From assembly GCA_002350855.1 (NCBI GenBank), contig DEFM01000035.1:1-40878 (forward strand): a DNA stretch of 40,878 nucleotides, in the 5' to 3' direction. This document shows, piece by piece, positions 1 through 17,728 of this stretch. Positions within the stretch are counted from its first letter, which is position 1. The number at the start of each line of letters is the position of its first letter. The stretch comes from Prevotellaceae bacterium UBA2852 (GTDB taxonomy: Bacteria; Bacteroidota; Bacteroidia; Bacteroidales; Bacteroidaceae). The translations under genes and the position numbers were made by a program. The notes beneath the pieces were generated by a model. It had not been told where the DNA came from. It made no database searches and was given only the letters and a program-made list of their open reading frames with translations.

Positions 1-1
1 A

Positions 2-610
2 GATACCCGTATCAAGGCAACCGTTGCGAGTACGATGTACGACATGACACGTGTGAGCGGCAACGGCTATTATGATGCCAACGACAACGAGCCTGACCGT
101 CATGCCGCACGCGAGGCACTTTCCAAACAGCGCCTTTCAGATCCGAAGAAAATGGCAGGTGGAGTCATCGACCCACTGCCTGATGATGCGCCACAATTTG
201 TTAAGGACTACTATGATTATTATAAAACAGAAAGAGGCTATCATGCACGCAGCGGCAATTCCAACGATGGCTGGCGTGTCATCGGCACCCAGGCCTACGC
301 CAATAGCCGCTTCCTATATTATATCAACGAGATTCGCTCTGCCGTCCTCGTGATGCATGGCGAGAAGGCCCACTCCCGCTACTTTGGTGAGGCAGCTTAT
401 CACTATATGGTTGATGGTAAGGCAGATGGGTACAAGTTTGTTGGCGAACCCAATCCCAACCCAGAGAACAAGCAGCTGCTCATCATCCCAGGAGCCTCAC
501 ATTGCGACCTCTACGATGGTGGATATACTGAACTCGTAGGTAAGGGCGAACCCAAGAATATGATTCCTTGGGATAAACTGGAGGAGTTTTTCAAAACGTA
601 TTTGAGATAG
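2..610 (+). CDS. Alpha/beta hydrolase, 3' part only
   Basis: The reading frame is open from base 2, so the gene begins before the window and the first ATG at 35 is internal (preceded in frame by DTRIKATVAST). The 203 visible residues are the C-terminal part of an alpha/beta hydrolase of the type common in Bacteroidales. Seen: VLVMHGEKAHS, the strand carrying the likely catalytic acid, and LLIIPGASHCDLYDGG, with the catalytic His. The nucleophile elbow must lie upstream. Substrate cannot be told; homologues are usually annotated only as hydrolases or esterases. The stop is TAG, and a strong hairpin terminator follows. Confidence 0.8.
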   Translation, partial: DTRIKATVASTMYDMTRVSGNGYYDANDNEPDRHAAREALSKQRLSDPKKMAGGVIDPLPDDAPQFVKDYYDYYKTERGYHARSGNSNDGWRVIGTQAYANSRFLYYINEIRSAVLVMHGEKAHSRYFGEAAYHYMVDGKADGYKFVGEPNPNPENKQLLIIPGASHCDLYDGGYTELVGKGEPKNMIPWDKLEEFFKTYLR

Positions 611-636
611 GCTTAGGTACAAGCTACACCAATAAG

Positions 637-670
637 CATCTCCCAAATCGAAAAGATTTGGGAGATGTTT
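637..670 (+). terminator. Intrinsic terminator after the hydrolase gene
   Basis: CATCTCCCAAATC (637-649) and GATTTGGGAGATG (655-667) form a perfect 13-bp stem with a 5-nt loop, followed by a short T-rich stretch. It lies 27 bases after the hydrolase stop. Confidence 0.75.
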
Positions 671-774
671 CGATATTTGTCCTTCAGAAATTTTGAGGCT
701 GTTATTTCCAAATTGTTCTCAAATAGGGTTTTAGGCTTCTGTGAAGGTTAATCGTATCAATGTTTATATGTCAG

Positions 775-987
775 TCACTTTAATATTCTCTGATATAATC
801 GCGTTTGCTTCTTGTCAAGATTCGATATCTTTATCTGAACCTTGGTTGGGCGTGGCACGTCTTCATGTAAAGACGAAAGGAGTCTCGTTATAACCTGTTC
901 GACGTTTGTAAATCCTGAGTCCTCGATTGTAGACACACGTTCACCACAGACGAATGCCTCTACGCGGATAAGATTGTACTTCGACAT
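775..987 (-). CDS. Small conserved-looking hypothetical protein
   Basis: This 70-aa product is not recognised. It begins MSKYNLIRVEAFVCGE and ends with a basic tail (KQTRLYQRILK). Alternating charged and hydrophobic residues suggest a small folded alpha/beta protein; there is no signal peptide or membrane segment. A longer frame could start at 1023, but those 12 extra codons lie inside a terminator hairpin (1004-1037), so the ATG at 987 is preferred. It lies just outside the island and would originally have been directly downstream of ppdK. Confidence that it is a real gene is moderate. Confidence 0.5.
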   Translation of the reverse strand: MSKYNLIRVEAFVCGERVSTIEDSGFTNVEQVITRLLSSLHEDVPRPTKVQIKISNLDKKQTRLYQRILK

Positions 988-1003
988 GCTCTCAAATGAG
1001 ATA

Positions 1004-1037
1004 TAAAAAAGAGACCTGTCCATTAGGGCAGGTCCCT
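1004..1037 (-). terminator. Orphan terminator, probably the original ppdK terminator
   Basis: On the minus strand AGGGACCTG (1037-1029) pairs with CAGGTCTCT (1018-1010), one G-U pair, and is followed by six T. It lies 25 bases after the stop of the ppdK tail fragment, as expected for a terminator left behind when an element inserted into the end of ppdK. Confidence 0.7.
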
Positions 1038-1060
1038 CAGCAAATTATGTAAGAGTGATT

Positions 1061-1091
1061 ATTACTCCTCAACGGCAGCCTGCGCGGCTGC
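1061..1091. repeat. Left att-like repeat (displaced ppdK end)
   Basis: 31 bases matching 8778-8808 in the same orientation. ATTACTCCTC is identical, and mismatches occur only at 1071, 1074, 1077 and 1083. Confidence 0.7.
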
Positions 1092-1100
1092 TAACGGGAA
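1062..1100 (-). pseudogene. Fragment of a ppdK 3' end (12 codons plus stop)
   Basis: Read on the minus strand this encodes FPLAAAQAAVEE and a stop. The intact ppdK at 8779-11499 ends with LAAAQAAVEE. The ten last codons give identical residues, and the four base differences from the intact copy are all at third codon positions. Upstream the similarity stops abruptly. It cannot be a gene by itself; it is the displaced end of a pyruvate phosphate dikinase gene, in the same orientation as the intact copy. Confidence 0.8.
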
Positions 1101-1127
1101 CTGATTATCAGCACTTTACGGCGAATC

Positions 1128-1149
1128 TGGGAAACATTTGGGAAACATT
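1128..1149. repeat. Tandem 11-bp repeat near island left end
   Basis: TGGGAAACATT occurs twice with no spacer (1128-1138, 1139-1149), 37 bases inside the left att-like repeat. Its position and size suit recombinase-binding sites; this role is inferred. Confidence 0.55.
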
Positions 1150-1162
1150 ATGAGCATATACT

Positions 1163-1364
1163 GCACATTCTGCACCCGATTTCCTCAAAATATCCAACCA
1201 TTTTTGCCACTTCGACTACTTTTCGATATTTTAATTGTTAAACACTATTGTTAGAACACAGATTGCATTACGACTTTTCAGCACGTTCTGCAAATTTTGC
1301 TTGCAAAATTAATGTTTTCTCATGACATTACGGTCGTTTTGCACGTTTTTCTTGCAGAACGTGT
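1163..1364. repeat. Three copies of a TGCAGAAYRTGY motif at island left end
   Basis: The motif is at 1163-1174 (minus), 1281-1292 (minus) and 1353-1364 (plus). The last two form a 12-bp inverted repeat (CACGTTCTGCAA / TTGCAGAACGTG, 1282-1293 and 1352-1363). A fourth copy (CGCAGAACATGC) lies at 8696-8707, close to the other end of the island. The pattern resembles arm-type integrase sites. Confidence 0.45.
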
Positions 1365-1475
1365 TTGTTTTTTTACAATTTCAGGTAAAGTGACATCTCT
1401 TCTTTCCACAATTATGTTTCAATCAAAAGAAAAACAGGCGGATTCAAATACCCTATTTATGTCTCTCTTAGACAA

Positions 1476-3146
1476 TTAATTTACAAATCCAATTCTTTTA
1501 CTTTTAGAATTCCTGATATTTTCATTGTGACAATAAGATCTAACGTGTGAAATATCTTGCTGGTGTCCATAGAGGATACTGTCAACAATCTGTTTTCGTG
1601 CGATATTTTCAATCTGACCGCCACTGAAATCATAGCTCTCTGCAAGACTTCTCGCTTCTTCACAACTTAGGGAGGGTAACATGGCGTTCCAAATTTGTTT
1701 CCTGGTGGCCACAGTCGGTTTCTCAAAACATATTTTATAAAGGAAACGTCGTTCGAATGCAGAATCCAAATTATTGGTGAGGTTGGTTGTGGCAATCATT
1801 ATTCCAGAGAGATTTTCCATAGCCTGAAGAATGATATTTTGACAGGCATTCTCCATCTTGTCAACAGCCGCATCGGTATTATTTGAGCGTTTGTTGATAA
1901 TAGCATCTGCCTCGTTGAAAAATAGTATAGGACAAATGTCATACTTCTTGACCATTGCTTCGTACTTACTGAAAAGTCCCTGTATCTTCTTCTCGCTCTC
2001 ACCAACCCACTTTGATTTTAAATCGGATATATTGACTTGAAAGATTGGACGTCTAGTCTTACGACTCAATTGCAACACAGTTTCTGTCTTTCCTGTACCA
2101 GGGGAACCATAGAAAAGGCAAGCGAAGCCTGTACGCATATTTGCTTCTTTAAGACGTCTCTGGATATCCTTAAATCTGTCTATAGAAAGCAGTTCTGTCA
2201 AGCGTTCTATCTCTTCTGTTTCACGTTCATTGTAATACATGTGTTTTTCTTCGATTACATCTGGCATAAGTAATAAGTTGCTTATGGTTTCGTCCTTTGT
2301 ATCTATGTATTCCTTAAGTTCTGAAAGAGTAGTTTCTAACATCTTATCTGTAAGACAGAATTTGTCTGGTTCAACCATACCGTTAACAGTGTAGTTTTCC
2401 ATCCACCCTTTTCTTATCAATACACACGTGTTGGCATTTAGAACAAATATGAAAGACTTTATGCCAGATTCTTCCGGAAGAACTCGTAAAATCTCGGAAG
2501 ACGAAATATAATCCGAATTGTGTTCTATCTTATCCATCACTGTGAGAAGAATCACCATTACGGCAAGGTTGTTCAGTTCGGAGGTCAGCAAGTCTTTGGA
2601 GAATGTCAGATGTCTTGTTGACTCCAAGAGTCGTCTGACGTTTTTAACTATATCTTCATAGAGCCCTTCATCGCGTTTTAGCATCTCTATCCATTTGGCA
2701 ATTTTTGTATAGACATCGTATGCTGTGTAGTCGTCATATTTCTTGGGGGTATATGGTTTGTTATCTATGATAGCCTCCATAAACTCATCACGAACGCGGT
2801 ATTCTAATGAGCATCTTGTCGCAACCCATTGTACAAAGTGCCTATAATGTAAATCGTCCAGTTCTTCTTTATGAATACGAAATCTGATTGGTGAACATTT
2901 CGTATAACGTGCCATATCGTTTAGAGATTCAGATTCGTCACTATTTGCTAGTATGGCAAGCATAATCGATTGAAAATGGGTAACATTTAATTCCTTGCTG
3001 ACAACAGTTATAGCATCATTACACGTGTTGTAGAACTCTGGTGAGAGTTTACTATCGCAAGATGCTTCATATATCATCTCAAATGCTGATGCCAGAGTAT
3101 AATTCTCAGGCGTATTCTTTATTATTTTCATTTCTTCTTTTATCAT
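1476..3146 (-). CDS. AAA family ATPase with N-terminal helical region
   Basis: A 556-aa protein with a single C-terminal AAA module: Walker A GSPGTGKT (about 347-354), Walker B ILFFNEAD (407-414), sensor-1 ATTN (452-455) and arginine-finger segment FERRF (464-468). The Walker B reads NE in place of the usual DE. The first 300 residues are mostly helical with no recognised domain and may bind a partner or DNA. The fold suggests a hexameric remodelling ATPase of the FtsH/spastin-like branch without protease or membrane parts. The ATG at 3146 was chosen; a TTG at 3182 would overlap the sigma-factor stop by 4 bases. It follows the sigma gene by 32 bases, so the two are probably co-transcribed. 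Its true role is unknown. Confidence 0.85.
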   Translation of the reverse strand: MIKEEMKIIKNTPENYTLASAFEMIYEASCDSKLSPEFYNTCNDAITVVSKELNVTHFQSIMLAILANSDESESLNDMARYTKCSPIRFRIHKEELDDLHYRHFVQWVATRCSLEYRVRDEFMEAIIDNKPYTPKKYDDYTAYDVYTKIAKWIEMLKRDEGLYEDIVKNVRRLLESTRHLTFSKDLLTSELNNLAVMVILLTVMDKIEHNSDYISSSEILRVLPEESGIKSFIFVLNANTCVLIRKGWMENYTVNGMVEPDKFCLTDKMLETTLSELKEYIDTKDETISNLLLMPDVIEEKHMYYNERETEEIERLTELLSIDRFKDIQRRLKEANMRTGFACLFYGSPGTGKTETVLQLSRKTRRPIFQVNISDLKSKWVGESEKKIQGLFSKYEAMVKKYDICPILFFNEADAIINKRSNNTDAAVDKMENACQNIILQAMENLSGIMIATTNLTNNLDSAFERRFLYKICFEKPTVATRKQIWNAMLPSLSCEEARSLAESYDFSGGQIENIARKQIVDSILYGHQQDISHVRSYCHNENIRNSKSKRIGFVN

Positions 3147-3178
3147 AGTTATTTGGTTCTTTTGAAATAATCTACTTA

Positions 3179-4042
3179 TCAAATGTATTGTGCCAATATT
3201 CCAATCTTATTGGAATGTCGAATTTTGCAGAGAGCCTTTTCGCGTATCTGGCGGACACGTTCTCTTGATAAACCGAATGCAAAACCAATCTCTTCAAGTC
3301 CTTCCTCCTTACAATTAATACCGAAGCTACGCATTAAGATTTCTTTTTCTTTGGCTGAAAGAATATGGTTGAGTATAGCAGTCATATCCTGATGCAGTGA
3401 CTCCTTATCTAAGGATTCATCTGTTTTAGAACCCGAAGAGACAAGGTCGCCAATGGAAGTATCTGTATCTTCAGAGAGAGGATCATCCATAGACAATGTC
3501 TTGGCGGTTTGCTCAATGAGTATGCCCGCCTTGTTCTCACTGATATTTGCAAACTCTGCAAACTCTGCTGTAGTTGGTTTTCTTTGTTCCGTCTGCATTG
3601 TCTCTTTTAATAGGATAGAATACATATTGAGGAGTGCCTGCTGGTTAAGAGGCAATCTGATGATTCTGCCATTCTCATAGATAGTTGAAGAGATGGACTG
3701 ACGGATCCACCATACGGCATACGATATGAACTTGAAGCCTCGTGTTTCGTCAAAGCGCTCTGCTGCCTTGATAAGCCCAATGTTTCCCTCTGAGATTAAG
3801 TCTGAGAGGTCCATATTGTACTGATGATACTGATTGGCTACAGAGATAACGAAGCGAAGGTTGGCTTCTACAAGTCTTTGCCGTGCCTTGTCAGCCTCCT
3901 TACCGCCTTGTCTGATCTTTTGTGCGAGAATCACCTCTTCATCAACCGTTACCATTGGATAACGACTTACTTCCTTGAAATATTTGTTTACTGAAATGTT
4001 GCTGCGCTCGGTAATGTTCTTGGTGTTTTTGAATTGTCTCAT
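3179..4042 (-). CDS. RpoD-like (group 2) sigma factor
   Basis: This 287-aa protein has the length and architecture of the short Bacteroidota primary sigma factor: a region 1.2 remnant (residues 15-60), region 2 (about 58-127) with RGFKFISYAVWWIRQSIS, region 3, and region 4 with the recognition helix GLSRERVRQIREKAL (257-271). It differs from the housekeeping RpoD at many otherwise conserved positions (for example HQYNMDLSDLISEGN and KEKEILMRSFGINCKEEG), so it is a paralogue. It probably directs RNA polymerase to a limited promoter set. It sits between the polymerase-palm-like gene and the AAA gene. The two genes upstream share an unusual promoter-region element that is a candidate target. Confidence 0.9.
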   Translation of the reverse strand: MRQFKNTKNITERSNISVNKYFKEVSRYPMVTVDEEVILAQKIRQGGKEADKARQRLVEANLRFVISVANQYHQYNMDLSDLISEGNIGLIKAAERFDETRGFKFISYAVWWIRQSISSTIYENGRIIRLPLNQQALLNMYSILLKETMQTEQRKPTTAEFAEFANISENKAGILIEQTAKTLSMDDPLSEDTDTSIGDLVSSGSKTDESLDKESLHQDMTAILNHILSAKEKEILMRSFGINCKEEGLEEIGFAFGLSRERVRQIREKALCKIRHSNKIGILAQYI

Positions 4043-4122
4043 TCGTTGCTGTTTTTTGTTTATTCAGAAGATGAAATAACTTTATGACTTGAGCACTCTT
4101 TTAATAACTATTCTTACATTCT

Positions 4123-4581
4123 TCAGTTTAAATAGGGTTGACCAAGGTATGAAGAAATCTCATATCCATTTGTTTTCATCCAGTTAACTGCTTGATTCCT
4201 AATTTCGTTGTCATAGGCGATAGTCACTTGTAGAGGCTGATGTGCCGTAAATATGCCAGGAACATAGGTGGTGCTGTTCGGTTGAGTTGCGGTGATGCCG
4301 AGGATGAATGGTACAAGGGAACCATTCAGGGAGCACTTGTCCACCTCCTGCTCGAAGCCCAGTTCCTTCCGTATTCCTTCTATTATTCTCGCCATGTCGA
4401 GTAAGGCATCCGTTAGGCAGTTTTGACAGATGGCATCCAGTTCAGCGGTCAAATTCTGTTCCATCCCTATGATGTCGATACCTTTTTGTTTTCTTGTATA
4501 TTCCACTTGAAAGCGGAATGATTCATTCTTTGCTCGTGCAGCCAATTGCGCCTTGCGCTTCTGATCTTTGTTCTTGCTCAT
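4123..4581 (-). CDS. Hypothetical protein resembling a fragment of C-family DNA polymerase palm
   Basis: A 152-aa protein with no certain family assignment. The first 30 residues are basic. Residues 62-140 can be laid over the DnaE palm: ARIIEGIRKELG matches the helix before the nucleotide-binding loop, NGSLVPFILGIT (86-97) matches the GAGSLVAYxLGIT motif, and VTIAYDNEIRNQAVNWMKTN (119-138) matches the DIDIDFxxxRRDEVIxY segment. The catalytic aspartates of that segment are replaced (V/I/A), so polymerase activity is not expected. This is motif matching by eye and remains an inference. The gene lies 80 bases upstream of the sigma factor gene and has a long leader with a 12-bp inverted repeat. 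Confidence 0.65.
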   Translation of the reverse strand: MSKNKDQKRKAQLAARAKNESFRFQVEYTRKQKGIDIIGMEQNLTAELDAICQNCLTDALLDMARIIEGIRKELGFEQEVDKCSLNGSLVPFILGITATQPNSTTYVPGIFTAHQPLQVTIAYDNEIRNQAVNWMKTNGYEISSYLGQPYLN

Positions 4582-4634
4582 GATTATTGAAATTACATAT
4601 AGTTAAGAGGAATAGCCCCCATATATATGTATCT

Positions 4635-4700
4635 TTATACGAATGAAAAGGCACAAAAAACGGCGTTTTTGCCTATTGATGTGCAAAAACGCCGCAGAAG
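4635..4700 (-). promoter_or_regulatory. Shared upstream element, copy 1
   Basis: The element is GTGCAAAAACGCCGCAGAA (4681-4699) plus TTATACGAATG (4635-4645), read on the plus strand. Both blocks recur with almost the same spacing (46 versus 45 bases) upstream of the metallo-hydrolase gene. No TAnnTTTG box is seen here, unlike the core genes. It may be a promoter read by the island's own sigma factor. Confidence 0.5.
4661..4694. promoter_or_regulatory. Perfect 12-bp inverted repeat upstream of the palm-like gene
   Basis: CGGCGTTTTTGC (4661-4672) and GCAAAAACGCCG (4683-4694) are separated by 10 bases. It lies 80-113 bases before the ATG at 4581. One half-site recurs at 6852-6863 upstream of the metallo-hydrolase gene. 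It could be an operator for a dimeric regulator such as the island's WYL protein, or an RNA hairpin. Confidence 0.55.
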
Positions 4701-4758
4701 AAGGCATAAAAAAGAGCTTTTTGCCAATTATAGTGCCAGCAATTACAATACTACTGTC

Positions 4759-6750
4759 CTAGAGAGTTTTTCCGTTGTCACTATAGGTTACACCCCATTC
4801 ATCTGTGTTACCGTATGGGAAGAGATAGACTCTTGGTACAATTTCCGTATCGGTCATCTGCTCATATTTAGACTTCAACTTTACCAACGGATGTACTACC
4901 ACAGAGTCCCAATGCCAGTCATCCCAGTCCTTTACATAGTCCTCATAGGTATTATAAAATTCATTCTTTTCCCAATATTCTCTTTCAGAATCTGGAGTTA
5001 TTGGACCGACTACTTTTACAGGCACGATAGCGTAGTAAGGAGCATGGAATACGGCAAGTGCCTTTTCCCCTGCCGCAAAACGACATGCTTCCTGATACTT
5101 GGCGCCGCCAGGCTGATGTCTACCATGAGTATAAGCTGCCAATAAATTCGTGCTCGCATCAAAAGTCTGTATCTTGAATGGCGACAAGTCTTCTTCTTCC
5201 TCTATCTCGTAGCCCACAATAGCAGCAGGTCTGTATAAAGTATGAACCAAAGCAAACTTGGAATCCTCGATTGTCTTGAAAGCACCGATAGACTTAACAT
5301 CGAGACCATGAGCCTCTTCCCTATCTTCTTGGCTTTCATAGACCGTTCCATCTTCAAGGACCTTGGTACAGAATATGCTTGCACTACAGGAATCTACCGT
5401 TGATGCAGATATTGGAGAAATAGACTGACCATCATAAAGCCTGATAACAGGCCATTCATCGCAGAACAGTTTTGCAAACTCATCTGGGCTGTCTGTATGG
5501 ATGGGGATTATGGCCTTTGGCTGAAGTTGATGGAAGAACTTGCTCAAATCTTTCATGTCAATATGGCCACTGGTATGCAAATTATCATATTCGCCATCCA
5601 ATGAGTTGGCTAAATTCTCATTGTATGCTTCGGTTCCCTCTTTGACATAGCCATCCCACATGGATAGCACTTTTTGCTTCTCTCCTGGAATTTGTTCAAG
5701 AAGATCATCAAAACGATCGCTACTCCGAGCGATAATCACATAACCTTTCTCGTTAAGAAACTCTTTAAAAGAGTCAGATACAAAGAAGCGATTCTTGTCA
5801 AACTTATGGTACATCAGTGCTTCTGGCACATTTTTCCCATATTGATACAATGAAGATTTAGTCCACATGGATTGACTGTTGACAACAACATCCATAATGT
5901 CTTTCTGATACTTGTCAACATAGAACGGTCGTCCAGCCTTTAAAGCTGCGTGATACAGAGAGAACAGCCTGTCAATATTGGTGGATGAGAGATAGACAAC
6001 ACAGGATTTCTTCTCTTTAAACAGAGACTCAAATTCGCGTTGTAGTGCAGATTCTTTTTTACTGGTTGCATTTGGTCGGAGAATATTGGTAGCTTCACAT
6101 ACCACATAGTCAACCTTGCCGACATACTGCTCCAGCATCTTGAAAAACTTACTACTTCTGAATCCATGCAAGCGGAAATCACCAGTATGATAGGCAGACA
6201 CACCATCAGCCTCGATCCTGAATGCGTATGCATCGAAAGCAGAATGGTCCACTGTCACAGGTCTGATGTTAAAAGGGCCAAATGTAAAAGCCTTTCCTGG
6301 TTCAAATGTTTGCACATTTTGCAGAAGCTTTACCATTTCATTGTGAGCAGGAAATACGGTCTTTAGGTGGTTAGACAGCACTAATTGTATCTCCCTTGCA
6401 ACTTCACCCATGTATATAGGAAGTTTCTCTGGCAGCTTTGTTATGCTACCAATATGGTCACCATGATAATGGGTGATTAGTAAAGCACTCTTTGACAAAT
6501 CTCCATGAGTCAAACCCTCGACTTGCAGCTCACCAGTCTTAGGGCCGCCAGGCAGTTCTTCGCCATAATCAACGAACAGATGCCAACCGTTATGTTCGTA
6601 TTCAGTGACACAACCGCCTATCTGATTTGTGCCACGATGAATGGTAATCTTCATTCCCAAACCCCTTTTGAAAGGTTTTGACACTTCTTGTTGTTCATCG
6701 GAGTTCGATAAAAAAATGCTCCGTCTGCGGGTCTTTTTCTCGTCGCTCAT
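4759..6750 (-). CDS. Beta-CASP metallo-beta-lactamase fold hydrolase (RNase J-like) with extra C-terminal domain
   Basis: A 663-aa protein. The metallo-beta-lactamase core begins near MKITIHRGTNQIGG (33-46) and has the metal motif THYHGDHIG (93-101), VDHSA (168-171) and HTGDFR (188-193), with Asp191 as the likely bridging ligand. A beta-CASP insert follows, with SGHID (394-398) and a C-terminal IHTD (417-420). This is the arrangement of RNase J/CPSF73-type nucleases. The N-terminal core resembles RNase J, but residues after about 450 do not match its usual C-terminal part and are unassigned. The first 32 residues are polar and could be non-essential; a start at codon 33 is possible. Predicted function: cytoplasmic RNA or DNA hydrolase. 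The upstream region carries the shared element also found before the palm-like gene. Confidence 0.85.
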   Translation of the reverse strand: MSDEKKTRRRSIFLSNSDEQQEVSKPFKRGLGMKITIHRGTNQIGGCVTEYEHNGWHLFVDYGEELPGGPKTGELQVEGLTHGDLSKSALLITHYHGDHIGSITKLPEKLPIYMGEVAREIQLVLSNHLKTVFPAHNEMVKLLQNVQTFEPGKAFTFGPFNIRPVTVDHSAFDAYAFRIEADGVSAYHTGDFRLHGFRSSKFFKMLEQYVGKVDYVVCEATNILRPNATSKKESALQREFESLFKEKKSCVVYLSSTNIDRLFSLYHAALKAGRPFYVDKYQKDIMDVVVNSQSMWTKSSLYQYGKNVPEALMYHKFDKNRFFVSDSFKEFLNEKGYVIIARSSDRFDDLLEQIPGEKQKVLSMWDGYVKEGTEAYNENLANSLDGEYDNLHTSGHIDMKDLSKFFHQLQPKAIIPIHTDSPDEFAKLFCDEWPVIRLYDGQSISPISASTVDSCSASIFCTKVLEDGTVYESQEDREEAHGLDVKSIGAFKTIEDSKFALVHTLYRPAAIVGYEIEEEEDLSPFKIQTFDASTNLLAAYTHGRHQPGGAKYQEACRFAAGEKALAVFHAPYYAIVPVKVVGPITPDSEREYWEKNEFYNTYEDYVKDWDDWHWDSVVVHPLVKLKSKYEQMTDTEIVPRVYLFPYGNTDEWGVTYSDNGKTL

Positions 6751-6804
6751 AATCTCTATAAGAATTTAAAGTTCAATATTGGGTTATAGTATGCCCCTAC
6801 TATA

Positions 6805-6868
6805 TTATACGAATGGAAACTGCAGTATCATAGGAAAAGTGACATTGTTGTGCAAAAACGCCGCAGAA
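6805..6868 (-). promoter_or_regulatory. Shared upstream element, copy 2
   Basis: TTATACGAATG (6805-6815) and GTGCAAAAACGCCGCAGAA (6850-6868), read on the plus strand, are identical to copy 1 at 4635-4700. On the minus strand the downstream block reads as TATAAT-like. It lies 55-118 bases before the metallo-hydrolase start. Confidence 0.5.
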
Positions 6869-6907
6869 AGTGGTGTAAAATATAATATTTTTCTGATTAT
6901 TGTTTAT

Positions 6908-7603
6908 TCAGTAACTTAACTTGCTCCATCCATCTATCCCTTCAAAAAGATCTCCATCATACACAGTTTGGAAACTCTCTTTATTTCTAGGGCACATAGA
7001 ATGAGCAATATATGTAATCCCTTTACGAGGTGTATGTATCTTGGACAACCTTTTTTTTATTCCTTTTTCAAGAGTCCCAGAATTTGAAGCTTCAATCAAA
7101 TCGATAAAGAGACATATTCTGTCTTCTTTTTCTTCATATAATTTGATAAAATCCTTTTCATACTTATCAGAATCACTCTCATTGTTCTTAAACTCAACAA
7201 GAGCTACAATTTTCCTATTTTTGTTATAAATGGCCATATCAAATCGGGCTGATACAGGTGATTCATCTTCTTTATCTGCTTTCCTGGGAAGAGGCTTCCC
7301 TGATTCTATTCTTTCAGAAAACACATACTTATATTGCGAAGGTGTTTCTATAGAATAATAATAATCCAAATTATTATCATCACAATATTTACAAAAAGTT
7401 TCTATAAATAAAAACCTTAATTCTTGCTCGCTGACCCTCACTAGATTTTGATTTGTTTTATTTTGGCTGTAATAACATGGAAATATCAAACGACTCCTAT
7501 TGTTATCAGTAATCTCTCCATATCTATTATTATATATCGTATCAATGGTTTTAAATGTGTCTTTTATTATTTCTTTCAAAGCATCTTTTAGATTTGAGTC
7601 CAT
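6908..7603 (-). CDS. Hypothetical protein with PD-(D/E)XK nuclease-like core
   Basis: A 231-aa protein, markedly AT-rich. No close family is recognised. Residues 57-145 carry the pattern of a PD-(D/E)XK core: acidic helix SEQELRFLFIETF (58-70), Asp in ARFDMAIY (119-126), then the E-x-K strand KIVALVEFKN (131-140; E137, K139). No signal peptide or membrane segment is seen. It may be a nuclease or a DNA-binding relative of one. The gene starts 5 bases after the WYL regulator stop, so the two form an operon, a pairing typical of defence loci. Assignment of the fold is by motif only. Confidence 0.7.
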   Translation of the reverse strand: MDSNLKDALKEIIKDTFKTIDTIYNNRYGEITDNNRSRLIFPCYYSQNKTNQNLVRVSEQELRFLFIETFCKYCDDNNLDYYYSIETPSQYKYVFSERIESGKPLPRKADKEDESPVSARFDMAIYNKNRKIVALVEFKNNESDSDKYEKDFIKLYEEKEDRICLFIDLIEASNSGTLEKGIKKRLSKIHTPRKGITYIAHSMCPRNKESFQTVYDGDLFEGIDGWSKLSY

Positions 7604-7608
7604 GGCTG

Positions 7609-8526
7609 TTATGAATATAAGTTAAACATATTTTTAATCCTCTCCTTCATCTTTCCTCTCAACTCCTCCGGCTCCAGCACCTCAACTGTATCACCCATTG
7701 CCAACAACTGACTGACCAACTCTGGTGTTATGCACAGTCTATAGGTGAATTCTGCAAACTCACGATATTTGGAGCGACCTTCGGATTGGCTTTTGTGGAG
7801 CGGAGTAGAGCGAAGGTATTCTGCCTGAGTACCGTAGGCGCGAATCATGACTTTCGTGACGGGCAGGTCGTTATTCACAAAGATGCCGACAACATTGGCA
7901 AAGTACTTCCTCGCATCGAAATCTTCAGGCAACTCAAAACTGGTCGAAAGGATTTTCAAGTCAAGAATGCGGTCGAGGGCGATGGTACGCAAATCACGCT
8001 TTTCTTTTATATACCCAAGCAGATACCAACGACGATTGAAAACCGTCAATGCGTATGGCTGGACATGAAACTCCTGCAGATTCTCTCCTTCCTGTTCGCT
8101 TTCATATCGTTGGTAGTCAATCTGCAGTTCAACATTCTTCTGCATTGCCTCAATAATGGAATTCAGGAATGTCGTTCCAAGAGGAATCTCTTCCAGCAAA
8201 ACCCTGTCCTTCATGCTATTAAAGGTTACAAAACCCTGAGGGATGCTATACTTGTGCAGCAACCACTTAGCAACCTTCTGTTTGTCCAGCACCTCTGGGT
8301 TCTTGACATAATATACATTACCATGTGAACGGTCGCATACTATCTCCACACCAAACATTTCCTTGATTCCCTTTCTCTGCTCGTGGAAAGTTCGTAGTGG
8401 TATAGGTCGTCCATCACTGGCTGGGCAAGCATCCCATAACATGTTTATCTCTTCAATCGTCAGAGGACAACTGTTCAGCAACGTGTCGAGGAGCCAAATG
8501 TATCTGTAATATGTTTTGCTAATCAT
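7609..8526 (-). CDS. WYL-domain transcriptional regulator
   Basis: A 305-aa protein with an N-terminal winged-helix-like segment (residues 1-75), a WYL domain around 130-195 that contains IDYQRYE (136-142) and RRWYLLGY (165-172, the WYL signature) followed by ALDRI (183-187), and a C-terminal WCX-like extension to 305. Proteins of this layout (BrxR/CapW type) bind inverted-repeat operators as dimers and often repress defence operons, sensing nucleic acid or nucleotide ligands. It is the first gene of the island's minus-strand run and the only one with a canonical TAnnTTTG box upstream (8634-8641). Its targets are not known; the 12-bp inverted repeat at 4661-4694 is a candidate. Confidence 0.9.
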   Translation of the reverse strand: MISKTYYRYIWLLDTLLNSCPLTIEEINMLWDACPASDGRPIPLRTFHEQRKGIKEMFGVEIVCDRSHGNVYYVKNPEVLDKQKVAKWLLHKYSIPQGFVTFNSMKDRVLLEEIPLGTTFLNSIIEAMQKNVELQIDYQRYESEQEGENLQEFHVQPYALTVFNRRWYLLGYIKEKRDLRTIALDRILDLKILSTSFELPEDFDARKYFANVVGIFVNNDLPVTKVMIRAYGTQAEYLRSTPLHKSQSEGRSKYREFAEFTYRLCITPELVSQLLAMGDTVEVLEPEELRGKMKERIKNMFNLYS

Positions 8527-8633
8527 ATATATTCAGAAGTTTTATGATAACTTTCTCAAAACAGGACCTATTTAGGCGCTGTGGGCTTACCAATGAATGT
8601 ATGCGCTGATGTTTCACATGCACCTATCGGGCG

Positions 8634-8641
8634 CAAAGTTA
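8634..8641 (-). promoter_or_regulatory. -7 box upstream of the WYL gene
   Basis: Minus-strand TAACTTTG matches the Bacteroidota -7 consensus TAnnTTTG, about 110 bases before the WYL start. A clear -33 TTTG at the usual spacing is not present. Confidence 0.4.
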
Positions 8642-8715
8642 CTAAAAATTATACAAAGAGAGGGCTTTACTATAAATGAATCTGCATTTAGAACTCGCAG
8701 AACATGCACAAAGAT

Positions 8716-8751
8716 AAAGGGCAAGTACCTAATTATAGATACTTACCCTTT
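8716..8751 (-). terminator. Terminator hairpin after ppdK
   Basis: AAAGGGTAAGTATCT (8751-8737, minus strand) pairs with AGGTACTTGCCCTTT (8730-8716) over 15 bp, with G-U pairs. It lies 28 bases after the ppdK stop. The T tract is short. Confidence 0.6.
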
Positions 8752-8777
8752 ATATAGCTAATTTTCAGCATCTTACG

Positions 8778-8808
8778 ATTACTCCTCGACTGCTGCCTGT
8801 GCGGCTGC
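8778..8808. repeat. Right att-like repeat (inside intact ppdK)
   Basis: Second copy of the 31-base repeat, forming the last codons and stop of the functional ppdK. An element that brings its own copy of the gene tail leaves the host gene intact, as seen here. Confidence 0.7.
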
Positions 8809-11499
8809 AAGACGTGCAATAGGCACACGGAATGGAGAGCAGCTTGCGTAGTTGAGACCAATCTTAGCGCAGAACTTAACTGAAGATGGTTCACCTCCGT
8901 GCTCACCGCAGATACCGGTGCGGAGATTTGGACGGATTGCGCGTCCCTTCTCAACTGCCATCTTAACGAGCTGACCTACACCGTTCTGGTCGAGTACCTG
9001 GAATGGGTCAACCTTCAGAATCTTCTTCTCGAGGTATGCAGGCAGGAACGATGCGATGTCGTCGCGGCTGTAACCGAAGGTCATCTGAGTGAGGTCGTTA
9101 GTACCAAATGAGAAGTACTGTGCCTCGGTTGCGATGCGGTCTGCTGTGAGGGCAGCACGTGGAATCTCAATCATTGTACCGATTTCGAATTCTACTTCTA
9201 CTCCGTATTCAGCGAACACTTCCTTAGCTGTAGCCTGGATGATGTCCTTCTGCTGCTTCAACTCGTAGAGGATACCGATGAGTGGAACCATGATTTCCGG
9301 CATTGGGTTCTTGCCTTCCTTCTTAAGTTCGCATGCTGCAGAGAGAATAGCACGTGTCTGCATAGCTGTGATTTCTGGGAATGTGATTCCGAGACGGCAG
9401 CCACGGTGACCGAGCATTGGGTTGTTTTCAGCAAGCGATGCAACACGGCGCTGGATAGTCTGGAGGTCAACTCCCATTTCCTTTGCCATAGTTTCCTGAC
9501 CTGCAAGATCGTGTGGTACGAACTCGTGGAGTGGTGGGTCGAGCAGACGGATGTTTACTGGCAGTCCGTCCATAGCTTCGAGGATGCCCTTGAAGTCTGC
9601 CTTCTGGTAAGGAAGGAGCTTAGCGAGTGCTTCTTCGCGTCCCTTAGCGCTGTCAGCAAGAATCATCTGACGCATTGCGATGATCTTCTGGTCGTCGAAG
9701 AACATGTGCTCTGTACGTGTAAGACCGATACCCTTGGCACCGAATGCGCGTGCAACCTGTGCGTCGTGTGGAGTATCTGCATTGGTACGTACCTGAAGCT
9801 TAGTGTACTTGTCGCAGAGGTCCATGAGTTCCTTGAAGTCACCACTGAGTTCAGCTGCCTTAGTTGGAACTTCACCTGCGTAAACCTGGCCTGTAGTACC
9901 GTTGATAGAGATGAAGTCACCTTCCTTGTAAACTACTCCGTCGATTTCTACAGTCTTGGTCTTGTAGTCAACGTTGAGTGAACCTACACCGCTGACGCAG
10001 CACTTACCCATACCACGTGCAACAACGGCTGCGTGTGAAGTCATACCTCCGCGTGCAGTGAGGATACCTTCTGCTGCAGACATACCTGCGAGGTCTTCTG
10101 GAGATGTCTCGATACGAACGAGAACTACACGGTGTCCGTCTGCGTGCCATGCCTGAGCATCGTCTGCATGGAATACGATTTGTCCGCATCCTGCGCCCGG
10201 ACTTGCTGGAAGACCCTGTGCGATAACCTTAGCATTAGAGAGTGCTTTCTTGTCGAATACAGGGTGGAGAAGTTCATCGAGCTTCTGTGGCTCGCAGCGC
10301 ATGATAGCTGTCTTCTCGTCGATTTTGCCTTCGTGGAGGAGGTCGATTGCGATCTTAACCATTGCAGCACCTGTACGCTTACCATTACGTGTCTGGAGGA
10401 ACCAGAGGTGGCCTTCCTGAACGGTGAACTCCATATCCTGCATATCACGATAGTGCTCTTCGAGCTTCTCCTGAATGCCGTTGAGTTGTGCGTAGATTTC
10501 TGGCATTGCCTCTTCCATAGAAGGATATTTGGCTGCACGTTCTGCTTCGCTGATACCTGCACGCTCTGCCCAGCGCTGTGAACCGAGCTTGGTGATCTGC
10601 TGTGGTGTGCGGATACCTGCTACAACGTCTTCACCCTGTGCGTTAACGAGGTATTCACCGTTGAATACGTTCTCGCCGTTTGCTGCGTCGCGGCTGAAGC
10701 ATACACCTGTAGCTGAAGTGTCGCCCATGTTTCCGAATACCATTGCCATAACTGAAACTGCTGTTCCCCATTCGTCTGGAATTCCTTCCATCTTGCGGTA
10801 GAGGATGGCGCGTTCGTTCATCCAAGAGCGGAATACTGCGCAGATAGCACCCCAGAGCTGTTCGATTGGGTCGTCAGGGAAGCTCTTGCCTGTACGTTCC
10901 TTGATGGCTGCCTTGAAACGCTTAACGAGTTCCTTGAGTTCGTCAACAGAGAGGTCCTTGTCGAGTTTTACACCACGGATTTCCTTAACCTGCTCGATGA
11001 TTTCCTCGAATGGATCGATGTCTTCCTTGTTGACTGGCTTCATTTCGAGAACCACGTCACCATACATCTGAACGAAACGACGATAAGAGTCGTAAACGAA
11101 GTGTGGGTTATTGGTCTTGCTAACCATTCCTTCTGCAACTTCGTCGTTAAGACCGAGGTTGAGGATGGTGTCCATCATACCAGGCATTGAAGCACGTGCA
11201 CCTGAACGTACACTGACGAGCAGTGGGTTTTCCTTGTCGCCGAACTTTGAGTTCATAAGTGTTTCGATGTGCTTCACAGCTGCCATGACGTCGTCGTTGA
11301 GCAACTCCATAATCTTCTGCTGACCTACTTCATAGTATTCGTTGCAGCAGTCGGTTGTGATTGTGAAACCAGGAGGAACTGGTACTCCGATGAGGTTCAT
11401 TTCGGCAAGGTTAGCACCCTTACCACCGAGTTCCTCGCGCATCTTTGCGTTTCCTTCGGCTTTTCCGTTACCGAAAGTGTAGACTCTTTTTTGACTCAT
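8779..11499 (-). CDS. ppdK: Pyruvate, phosphate dikinase
   Basis: A 906-aa enzyme that interconverts pyruvate + ATP + Pi with phosphoenolpyruvate + AMP + PPi in central carbon metabolism. The N-terminal ATP-grasp part contains GGKGANLAEM (26-35). The swivelling phosphohistidine domain has GGMTSHAAVVARGMGK, with the catalytic His near residue 489. The C-terminal PEP-binding barrel has the conserved Cys in GICGEHGGEPSS (near 867). Length is usual for the family. It is a single-gene unit with its own promoter (11573-11604) and terminator. The last codons (LAAAQAAVEE) are duplicated at 1062-1100, so this gene's 3' end appears to be the integration site of the adjacent island and may have been supplied by it. 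Confidence 0.97.
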   Translation of the reverse strand: MSQKRVYTFGNGKAEGNAKMREELGGKGANLAEMNLIGVPVPPGFTITTDCCNEYYEVGQQKIMELLNDDVMAAVKHIETLMNSKFGDKENPLLVSVRSGARASMPGMMDTILNLGLNDEVAEGMVSKTNNPHFVYDSYRRFVQMYGDVVLEMKPVNKEDIDPFEEIIEQVKEIRGVKLDKDLSVDELKELVKRFKAAIKERTGKSFPDDPIEQLWGAICAVFRSWMNERAILYRKMEGIPDEWGTAVSVMAMVFGNMGDTSATGVCFSRDAANGENVFNGEYLVNAQGEDVVAGIRTPQQITKLGSQRWAERAGISEAERAAKYPSMEEAMPEIYAQLNGIQEKLEEHYRDMQDMEFTVQEGHLWFLQTRNGKRTGAAMVKIAIDLLHEGKIDEKTAIMRCEPQKLDELLHPVFDKKALSNAKVIAQGLPASPGAGCGQIVFHADDAQAWHADGHRVVLVRIETSPEDLAGMSAAEGILTARGGMTSHAAVVARGMGKCCVSGVGSLNVDYKTKTVEIDGVVYKEGDFISINGTTGQVYAGEVPTKAAELSGDFKELMDLCDKYTKLQVRTNADTPHDAQVARAFGAKGIGLTRTEHMFFDDQKIIAMRQMILADSAKGREEALAKLLPYQKADFKGILEAMDGLPVNIRLLDPPLHEFVPHDLAGQETMAKEMGVDLQTIQRRVASLAENNPMLGHRGCRLGITFPEITAMQTRAILSAACELKKEGKNPMPEIMVPLIGILYELKQQKDIIQATAKEVFAEYGVEVEFEIGTMIEIPRAALTADRIATEAQYFSFGTNDLTQMTFGYSRDDIASFLPAYLEKKILKVDPFQVLDQNGVGQLVKMAVEKGRAIRPNLRTGICGEHGGEPSSVKFCAKIGLNYASCSPFRVPIARLAAAQAAVEE

Positions 11500-15883: not shown

Positions 15884-16281
15884 GGGGTTGACATGGATTT
15901 GACAGCATGATGGAGTGGTACGTAAGCATGCAGAGCGTTGATGGCCGTCTCTTTAATCCAGGCTCTCGCAGAATTTATCTGGCAACAACACTTATGCTCT
16001 CGCAGCTTAATCGAAGTATAGTAGATTAACTTTATTCCCTTGCCAGGCGAGGGAACGAGACATCGCCCTGAAAGCTATTCGTCCCGAAGCGTTCAGTTCA
16101 GCGGTGCAGGAAAATCGGGAATAGTCTGCTGTGGCTCCGCACAGTTGATGAAATTTTAGGAGATAAGGCGTTAGTGGGTGGTTCAGGTCTTGCTGATGCA
16201 CGAAAACCGAAGTCTGAAATAAGCATGTAGAAAGCGTATGGCTTCCATGTTTGGACGAGGGTTCAATTCCCTCCAGCTCCA
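15884..16281 (+). ncRNA. ssrA: tmRNA
   Basis: The tRNA-like ends pair: GGGGTTG (15884-15890) with CAGCTCC (16274-16280), discriminator A at 16281. The T arm GGGTTCAATTCCC is intact, and GACATGGATTTGACAGC is the usual conserved tmRNA 5' segment. The tag frame is GGC at 15981 to TAA at 16008-16010, encoding GNNTYALAA. Bacteroidales tags have the form GxxxYALAA, so this fits. The 3' CCA is not encoded in full (the sequence after the discriminator is CAC), so CCA must be added after processing. The RNA releases stalled ribosomes and tags the nascent chain for proteolysis. Confidence 0.95.
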
Positions 16282-16292
16282 CACAGGGATTT

Positions 16293-16328
16293 AAGACATC
16301 TTGCACCATGGCAGGATGTCTTTTTTTT
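16293..16328 (+). terminator. ssrA terminator
   Basis: AAGACATCTTGC (16293-16304) pairs with GCAGGATGTCTT (16311-16322), one G-U pair, followed by a T tract to 16328. Confidence 0.9.
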
Positions 16329-16358
16329 GTGCCCAAAATCAAAATCTTAATAAAGTGG

Positions 16359-16390
16359 TTTGCGTATGTGCGCATTTATTGCTAATTTTG
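16359..16390 (+). promoter_or_regulatory. glyA promoter
   Basis: TTTG (16359-16362), 20 bases, TAATTTTG (16383-16390). It lies 58 bases before the glyA start and probably drives the long plus-strand run to 24818. Confidence 0.8.
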
Positions 16391-16447
16391 CACGGAATTA
16401 CGGATTTTGCTTAAAATTTTTTACACAAACATATTTATTTCTTTAAA

Positions 16448-17728
16448 ATGAAAAGAGACGATCAAATCTTCTCGTTGATTGAGAAGGAGCATCAGAGACA
16501 AGTAAAGGGCATGGAGCTCATTGCCAGTGAAAACTACGTAAGCGACCAGGTGATGGAAGCTCAAGGCTCATGCCTCACAAACAAGTACGCAGAGGGTTAT
16601 CCCGGCAAGCGCTACTATGGTGGATGTGAAGTAGTGGACCAGACAGAGCAGATCGCCATTGACCGCATCAAGCAGTTGTTCGGTGCTGAGTATGCCAACG
16701 TACAGCCTCATAGTGGAGCACAGGCAAACGCAGCTGTATTGCTGACTGTCCTTAAGCCAGGCGATTGCTTTATGGGTCTTAACCTCGACCACGGAGGTCA
16801 CCTCTCTCATGGTAGCCATGTGAATACCAGTGGTATCCTTTACCGTCCGGTTGGCTATAACCTCAATCCTGATACTTGCCGCGTGGACTATGATGAGATG
16901 GAACGTCTCGCATTGGAAAACAAACCAAAGCTGATTATTGGTGGTGGTTCTGCATATAGCCGTGATTGGGACTACAAGCGCATGCGCCAGATTGCCGACG
17001 AGGTAGGTGCAATGCTTATGATTGACATGGCTCATCCTGCAGGTCTTATTGCTGCCGGACTCCTCGACAACCCTCTGAAATATGCACACATCGTTACTTC
17101 TACTACTCACAAGACTCTCCGTGGTCCTCGTGGTGGTATCATCCTGCTTGGCAAGGACTTCGACAATCCTTGGGGACTCACTACTCCAAAGGGTGAAATC
17201 AAGAAGATGTCTGCACTCCTCAATTCTGCTGTGTTCCCAGGACAGCAGGGCGGCCCGCTCGAACATGTGATTGCTGCCAAGGCTGTTGCCTTCGGTGAAG
17301 CTCTCCAGCCAGAGTTCGTTGAGTACCAGAAGCAAGTTAAGAAGAACGCTGCTGTTCTCGCTCAGGCTCTCATCGACCGCGGATTCTATATCTGCTCAGG
17401 CGGTACCGACAACCACTCTATGCTTGTTGACCTCCGTCCAAAGTATCCAGACCTCACAGGTAAGGTTGCAGAGAAGGCTCTTGTTGCTGCCGACATTACA
17501 GCAAACAAGAATATGGTTCCGTTCGATACTCGTTCTGCATTCCAGACAAGTGGAATCCGTCTTGGTACTCCTGCCATGACTACTCGTGGCGCTAAGGAAG
17601 ATCTCATGCTGGTTATTGCTGAACTCATCGAAACTGTGCTGAACTCTCCTGAAGACGACCGTGTCATCACATCGGTTCGTGAGAAGGTTAACAGCATCAT
17701 GAATGACTATCCGATTTTTGCTTGGTAA
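16448..17728 (+). CDS. glyA: Serine hydroxymethyltransferase
   Basis: A 426-aa PLP enzyme that converts serine and tetrahydrofolate to glycine and 5,10-methylene-tetrahydrofolate, the main one-carbon source. It opens with [20 protein letters not shown] and [15 protein letters not shown], the substrate and folate signatures. The PLP lysine is K222 in [14 protein letters not shown]. Full length. It has its own promoter and is followed after 13 bases by rlmN. Confidence 0.97.

Follow-up and report, generated by a model that had tools for sequence, protein, structure and literature searches.

An integrase-less island at the 3' end of ppdK in a Prevotellaceae contig and related arrays in Prevotella

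The stretch of DNA analyzed here, the window, comprises 40,878 nt of contig DEFM01000035.1 from Prevotellaceae bacterium UBA2852. It contains an island, at about 1065-8778, located at the 3' end of ppdK, the gene for pyruvate phosphate dikinase, and bounded by two copies of the end of that gene. The island is almost certainly a site-specifically integrated element for which the ppdK 3' end served as attachment site (attB). Furthermore, it is quite probably an integrase-less element that depends on another one. High confidence is placed in this explanation as a whole.

The duplicated ppdK tail and its recurrence

The features that delimit the island at the ppdK tails are as follows.
8779..11499, minus strand: ppdK, pyruvate phosphate dikinase, with complete 3' end (TIGR01828, 1333 bits; Pfam PF01326, PF00391, PF02896)
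8778..8808, minus strand: inner tail copy (attL) with the final nine codons and the stop, putatively supplied by the element; 27/31 to the outer copy
1061..1091, minus strand: outer tail copy (attR), the displaced ppdK 3' end; 20/20 to the published attB motif
1090..1119, minus strand: conserved arm GTAA-N4-CTGATAATCAG-N4-CGTTAGC, immediately ahead of the outer tail; consensus derived from 90 displaced tails, that of the window included
1009..1038, minus strand: terminator-like hairpin behind the outer tail (-18.4 kcal/mol, z -4.1, T-rich tail)

Both tail copies (1061-1091 and 8778-8808) have the same orientation, lie 7.7 kb apart and are identical at 27 of 31 bases. Read on the minus strand, the inner copy is GCA GCC GCA CAG GCA GCA GTC GAG GAG TAA and the outer copy GCA GCC GCG CAG GCT GCC GTT GAG GAG TAA, that is, nine codons and a stop with four differences, every one of which is synonymous and at a third position. 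The ppdK body is attached to the inner copy only, the outer copy being detached. A hairpin also follows the inner tail (8714-8753, -27.9 kcal/mol, z -5.5); neither tail hairpin was listed by a simple terminator scan of 600-9000. The original prediction, made from the sequence, had described this duplication with 27 of 31 bases, the synonymy of all four differences, an outer copy cut off from the gene body and a terminator behind it, and all of this stands, except that it had counted ten codons where there are nine. Its claim that an island was inserted at the ppdK 3' end, bringing a replacement tail, gains support from the conserved arm and from the same architecture in many related genomes.

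Chance similarity or an assembly artefact is hardly credible as an explanation. Some metagenome contigs do break near these repeats, but elsewhere in the window fewer than 20 of 31 bases match the tail, the maximum in 100 shuffles of 3-base blocks was 22, and the same structure lies inside contigs of 2.7 to 3.7 Mb in G129, G277, G356, and G361. Here, G numbers denote 398 genomes from the genus of a near relative that displays the arrangement of locus L066, and L numbers denote fetched loci or contigs; all compared genomes belong to species other than that of the window.

L066, found in a starting sample of 80 ppdK loci, is arranged like the window, its 2.2-kb unit encoding a PD-(D/E)XK protein. 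The 398 genomes were then covered by a tail pattern with a preceding GTTAGC in which a single mismatch was tolerated. Other elements at ppdK 3' ends, for which the original prediction had proposed a search, were thereby found: the pattern matched in 81 genomes, and inspection of the regions revealed displaced tails in at least 70 of 398, a lower bound from a biased sample because of this GTTAGC requirement and the fragmentary state of many genomes. The 70 consist of 69 genomes with 90 displaced tails together with G009, and the window adds one tail (91). In the remaining 11 pattern-match genomes, 10 matches were genuine ppdK ends with the same letters, and G134 was left out. In addition, metagenome contigs L001, L005, L010, L013, and L019 were observed to break off 57-255 bp after the ppdK match, which is what an assembler halting at variable or repeated element ends would produce.

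The arm preceding 90 displaced tails, that of the window included, has the consensus GTAA-N4-CTGATAATCAG-N4-CGTTAGCC. A 32-position matrix of it, trained on 87 of the sites later scored, was scanned over 1.66 Mb (both strands summed) and gave 83 matches, 81 of them at known tails and 2 before ppdK-tail-like sequence, every one in the ppdK orientation. The decay of a second full ppdK, or a duplication by recombination, is therefore very improbable: such an origin would explain the existence of the tail copy and nothing more, but no ppdK body precedes the outer tail, and the position is occupied by the conserved arm, which the matrix also detects at 81 of 91 displaced tails. Tail variation at codon positions 1, 2, and 3 amounts to 1.5, 1.1, and 34%; its use as proof of selection was set aside, since the search pattern itself favours third-position changes.

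The original prediction had regarded ppdK as an unusual attachment site. It is in fact a published target: PvCTn-type conjugative transposons of Phocaeicola vulgatus integrate at the ppdK 3' end within a 20-bp attB motif, GYSGCNCARGCKGCHRTHGA, generating imperfect direct repeats and regenerating the stop codon, and related integrases were reported at the site (PMC11005914). The motif is common to PvCTn and the island, the outer copy fitting it at 20 and the inner copy at 19 of 20 positions. Moreover, of the 91 displaced tails, 74 agree with the motif at all 20 positions or at 19, the search pattern having favoured such tails.

Ends, integrases and movement of the units

The two ends of the island and its outer flank contain the following features.
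8521..8810, minus strand: left-end module of tail, stop, hairpin 8714-8753, spacer and WYL gene start; 97.6% over 288 bp to the ppdK 3' flank of G265
1065..1434, minus strand: right-end module, from the last cargo gene to the end of the outer tail; 86-95% over more than 200 bp to right ends of 18 other genomes
1128-1136 and 1139-1147, minus strand: two A-type repeats TGTTTCCCA, found by repeat scan and also present upstream of the G003 and G258 integrases
775..1023, minus strand: integrase C-terminus remnant, an 82-aa open reading frame (ORF), the putative left end of a second, decayed unit; 72-81% to the integrases of G387, G123, G206, G162, and G022
1..620, plus strand: cargo belonging to the adjacent outer unit (ORF 35-610, truncated at the window edge), without Pfam or NCBIfam match

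At the left end, window and G265 are 97.6% identical over 288 bp, whereas their ppdK 3' ends share just 73.3% over 389 bases. Along the unit, identity falls from 97-100% over the initial 300 bases to 71-91% over the following 900 and about 50% further in, so that the likeness drops within the WYL gene, indicating that the units are mosaic. The right-end module is matched, for example, in G206 (91.1% over 372 bp) and G343 (94.7% over 264 bp), with weaker matches in further genomes.

Short repeats at the ends fall into types. Integrase-bearing left ends display type A (TGTTTCCCA) in G003 and G258, with five copies (L032) and two copies, respectively, on the forward strand upstream of the integrase; type B (TTTACACTAA) in G002; type C (TGTTGACCA) in G203 and G109; type D (TGTTTACCA) in G123, G206, and G162; and type E (TGTTGAGA) in G128 and G078, while no repeat stood out at the integrase left ends of G387 and G022. 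For right ends, the 250 bp before displaced tails were scanned for repeats A, B (TTTACACTAA or TTTACAATAA) and C. At least one was present at 71 of 85 right ends (A at 38, B at 24, C at 9; 67 on the ppdK strand) and in 42 of 5,369 interior windows (25 on the ppdK strand), figures that demonstrate concentration at ends and not an independent prediction, the motifs having been chosen from the same ends later counted. Where no known integrase lies behind a left end, A, B or C occurred in 2 of 111.

The first 103 bases behind the inner tail of the window are closest to A-type elements (89/103 and 88/102), with lower agreement for type B (80/97) and type C (73/100 and 77/99). With two A repeats at the right end and a left end nearest to type A, the unit therefore resembles an A-type element from which the integrase and left repeats are missing. 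No integrase, recombinase or transfer domain was found in the six cargo genes with Pfam and NCBIfam, and no integrase relative by tblastn, in agreement with the original prediction that an integrase is lacking. From the arrangement of the sequence, the cargo operon looks like it stands where the A-type integrase and left repeats would be.

The outer flank is itself an array, because 775-1023 is an integrase remnant (its DNA 80.6% identical to G206 over 273 bp) and 1-620 matches the interior of the ppdK array of G387. The latter match, which extends to the window edge, has 99.4% identity over 620 bp and corresponds to G387 16085-16704, a segment enclosed by the G387 array tails at 15916 and about 20743; between window and G387, the ppdK 3' ends are 76.4% identical over 250 bp. 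The gene at 775-987 had originally been taken for the native neighbour of ppdK, a view that these matches overturn. The next unit outward probably once carried an integrase that is now decayed, and its outer border falls outside the window. For ORF 35-610, the name "hydrolase", given by eye, was dropped, as neither Pfam nor NCBIfam gave a match; the name "AraC" for the gene that follows the G277 tail had likewise been assigned by eye.

Integrases adjoin ppdK in many genomes. In G387, a 487-aa protein behind ppdK matches Phage_int_SAM_5 above the cut-off and Phage_integrase just below it (24.2 bits versus 27.1). Its relatives at E <1e-40 occur in 52 of 398 genomes, and integrase matches of at least 42% identity in 41. 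In 25 of the 41, the ppdK stop is followed at a distance of 183-423 bp by the start of a tyrosine integrase gene in the same orientation (only partial in G169, G074, and G271); in G214 and G209 it adjoins ppdK inverted; the other 14 are on other contigs, further away (G206, 1.7 kb) or without a listed ppdK position. Among 12 weaker integrase rows (29-37%), the five with known ppdK position (G008, G092, G149, G045, and G396) are all on another contig. Integrases 54-57% identical to that of G008 follow ppdK in L022, L039, and L041, in line with the published PvCTn site, the comparison being by position. It was also observed that the integrases of G002, G203, G109, and G258 are 78-90% identical to each other with upstream repeats B, C, C, and A; arm specificity may therefore change fast.

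Units were counted only where ppdK and displaced tails share a contig, so that large conjugative elements, whose distal ends lie on different contigs, are probably counted too rarely. On this basis, 26 delimited units in 19 arrays (18 genomes and the window) range from 1.4 to 48 kb, with a median of 4.8 kb, some of them in tandem. An integrase is present in 2 of the 26; G123 and G206, whose ppdK tail was unmatched and which stand outside the 26, have an integrase between ppdK and the first displaced tail, giving 4 of 28. Among the genes carried by other units are those for Fic, AbiEi/AbiEii, and beta-galactosidase. In G370, the AbiE unit occupies the first array position and in G387 the second; the two copies share 91.3% identity over 3,984 bp, bounded at the tail, whereas the corresponding ppdK 3' ends are 72.0% identical over 250 bp. 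The AbiE unit thus appears to have moved horizontally between species.

The original prediction expected that genomes without the island would have ppdK followed directly by the 1004-1037 terminator and the 775-987 gene. This order was unseen in the fetched regions, but an equivalent pair exists. From its displaced tail into the next gene, G068 aligns with G277 from the intact ppdK tail at 881 of 953 aligned bases; G068 is occupied by an extra 6.0-kb unit between ppdK and the displaced tail, and G277 is empty at that position. It should be noted that G277 has its own displaced tail 26 kb further on and is thus empty at the position, not element-free.

Routes of mobilization and known systems

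Integration is envisaged as follows. A circular element carrying the arm, a ppdK tail with stop and the hairpin would be recombined by a tyrosine integrase with the resident ppdK tail, whereby ppdK would keep a complete end and the old tail would be pushed outward. Eight IMG/VR contigs encode relatives of the ppdK-array integrase. In L288, L289, and L291, a ppdK end precedes the integrase in a prophage-like manner; L292 starts at the tail, L290 starts at the integrase, and L295 is without tail. In L293 (about 2725) and L294 (about 73), a ppdK tail and stop stand before the integrase, with a hairpin-like inverted repeat behind, and the DNA ahead of the tail is not ppdK; in L293, a repressor-like gene is located there. 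As expected of a phage attachment site, L293 and L294 are candidate attP sequences carrying a replacement ppdK end; alternatively, they may derive from a second prophage in tandem.

The mode of mobilization is a matter of inference: the island may move together with a neighbour that encodes an integrase, may move in trans, or may have ceased to move. As integrase and left repeats are missing, the island probably was or is mobile only upon arrival of a type-A element at its tail. Integrase and left repeats would then come from this newcomer and the right repeats from the island, and both could excise together, a cis-mobilization by accretion as proposed for cis-mobilizable elements (CIMEs). For this accretion route specifically, the chances are considered about even.

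Decay offers a different account, in which the island was once an autonomous A-type element that lost its integrase and left repeats by deletion, the block being fixed and spreading solely by homologous recombination between ppdK ends or right-end modules. The integrase remnant at 775-1023, integrases with stops or cut short in G003, G221, G367, G382, G074, and G271, and the mosaic match to G265 all agree with such a history. However, integrase-less units 91% alike, bounded at the tail and differing in array position, are shared between genomes whose ppdK 3' ends are 72% identical. Decay is accordingly given a limited, though appreciable, probability.

Trans-mobilization, in which the unit would excise and integrate alone with an integrase from an unlinked element acting on core and right end only, is considered rather unlikely. 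It fits the 24 of 26 delimited units without integrase, as well as G356, G361, and G129, in which a unit lies on an about chromosome-sized contig without any integrase match at E 1e-40 or better, and G277, likewise without such a match (contig 3.56 of about 3.8 Mb). Lambda-type integrases, however, normally need both arms, and 109 of 111 left ends without a known integrase behind them have no A, B or C repeat.

Several observations weigh against the favoured explanation of the island as an integrated, dependent element. With no genome of the window's species compared, no empty site for this island was found, and no circular form was seen. The exact pattern of arm and tail had no match in IMG/VR. 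Below the arm-matrix cut-off are 10 of 91 displaced tails, and 14 of 85 right ends have none of the scanned repeats. Four contigs contain an integrase unit and, behind it, a right end; left and right repeat types match in only one of the four: the pair is E/E in G128, D/A in G206, and none found/B in G387, and in G123 the left end is D with one inverted C and the right end C. Strict left/right type matching is thus not claimed. Relatives of the beta-CASP-like cargo gene occur in 28 of 398 genomes and lie off the ppdK contig in 12 of the 12 with both positions known, so that this cargo also spreads without ppdK. The island as a dead relic moved by homologous recombination only retains a minor share of the probability.

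Comparison with known systems places the island more precisely. PvCTn elements encode an integrase, type IV secretion system (T4SS) genes and the BVU3432-BVU3433 regulators (PMC11005914; 2024), and the main text of that paper mentions neither Prevotella nor tandem or satellite elements. The island is without integrase or transfer gene, as judged on domains and not on a comparison with BVU3432/BVU3433. CIMEs are cis-mobilizable, flanked by attL and attR, free of integration and transfer genes, and accrete in tandem at the end of a target gene (PMC5704250). The island is CIME-like, a known kind of element in a little-described setting, at a hot spot known for conjugative transposons of gut Bacteroidota: its ends (tails, arm and A-type sequences) are related to integrase-bearing elements at the same site, and its six cargo genes include no integrase and no transfer gene. 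In contrast to CIMEs, it targets a protein-coding gene and replaces the final codons of that gene, and its mobilization is putative. Dehalococcoides ssrA islands are also tandem, with direct repeats of the target end and a conserved motif beside the repeat, and 15 of them are without integration module (PMC3146451), but they involve serine recombinases and a tmRNA gene, whereas the ppdK arrays involve tyrosine integrases and ppdK. An integrative and mobilizable element (IME) is defined by its own recombinase, which the island does not have.

Integron gene cassettes, whose attC sites are the substrate of IntI, are likewise mostly integrase-less units in arrays anchored at one place. Unlike them, ppdK units are often multi-gene and their site is the 3' end of a gene. 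It is proposed, tentatively, that ppdK anchors a cassette-array system across Prevotella. Its units, a few kb in size and for the most part non-autonomous, would combine a uniform left end, consisting of replacement codons for ppdK, a stop and a terminator, with a repeat-typed right end. A few arm-matched integrases would then collect, reorder and exchange units between species, and defence and metabolic cargo would be delivered in an integron-like manner via the 3' end of a protein gene. In open-licence PMC papers, to which statements on novelty refer, neither ppdK-anchored arrays nor integrase-less islands at ppdK were found; as far as this literature shows, integrase-less ppdK arrays in Prevotella and typed end repeats are new. 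Starting from a single odd repeat, an insertion hot spot has thus been mapped, with displaced tails in no fewer than 70 of 398 sampled genomes; through it, toxin-antitoxin, nuclease, metabolic and possible defence genes enter these gut and rumen bacteria. Furthermore, some 90 natural sites with distinct repeats, together with A, B, and C integrases about 80% identical, make arm specificity and cis versus trans mobilization directly testable.

Cargo genes and further observations

Six minus-strand genes lie between the tail copies.
7609..8526, minus strand: WYL-domain regulator, 305 aa (PF13280 and PF25583)
6908..7603, minus strand: 231-aa protein, no family match (Pfam, PADLOC, NCBIfam, and PHROGs searched)
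4759..6750, minus strand: metallo-beta-lactamase (MBL)/beta-CASP-like protein, 663 aa (PF12706, PF07521)
4123..4581, minus strand: 152-aa protein, no family match (Pfam, PADLOC, NCBIfam, PHROGs); 86% relative at the same operon place in G033
3179..4042, minus strand: sigma-70 family factor, 287 aa (Pfam sigma-70 regions 1.2, 2, 3, 4)
1476..3182, minus strand: AAA ATPase, 568 aa from the first start codon (PF00004; IetA-like PADLOC match, E 6e-29)

By eye, the 231-aa protein contains a possible PD-(D/E)XK-like motif (FDMAIYNKNRKIVALVEFK). The beta-CASP-like protein has a partial RNase J match far under the RNase J cut-off, and the best 120 listed relatives of the AAA ATPase are 69-97% identical. 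For the window genes, PADLOC returned weak IetA-like, MzaA-like, and WYL matches only and no complete known system. The window contains no tRNA gene, and Rfam gave no match in 1-9000 at E up to 0.5.

The order of WYL, variable gene or genes, beta-CASP-like MBL, 152-aa protein, sigma-70 factor and AAA ATPase was observed in the window (1476-8526) and, with differences, in L271 (4647-12028) and L272 (5743-10941). The operon of G033 contains WYL, two other proteins, beta-CASP-like, 152-aa, sigma and AAA genes (81-86%), and that of G243 contains WYL, a relative of the 231-aa protein, beta-CASP-like and AAA genes (38-87%), the 152-aa and sigma genes not being found; both are on other contigs or away from known ppdK. 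The copies differ in the segment between the WYL and beta-CASP genes, which has been exchanged. Recurrence of the operon with an exchanged middle part suggests a modular defence system, and by its look the cargo operon may be a defence module, at somewhat less than an even chance. Finally, in G310, G155, and G008 (L282, L285, and L078), ppdK and the integrase are followed by small glycine-rich proteins and a giant ORF of 1,855 to 3,556 aa, cut by the end of the stretch and phage-like by eye.

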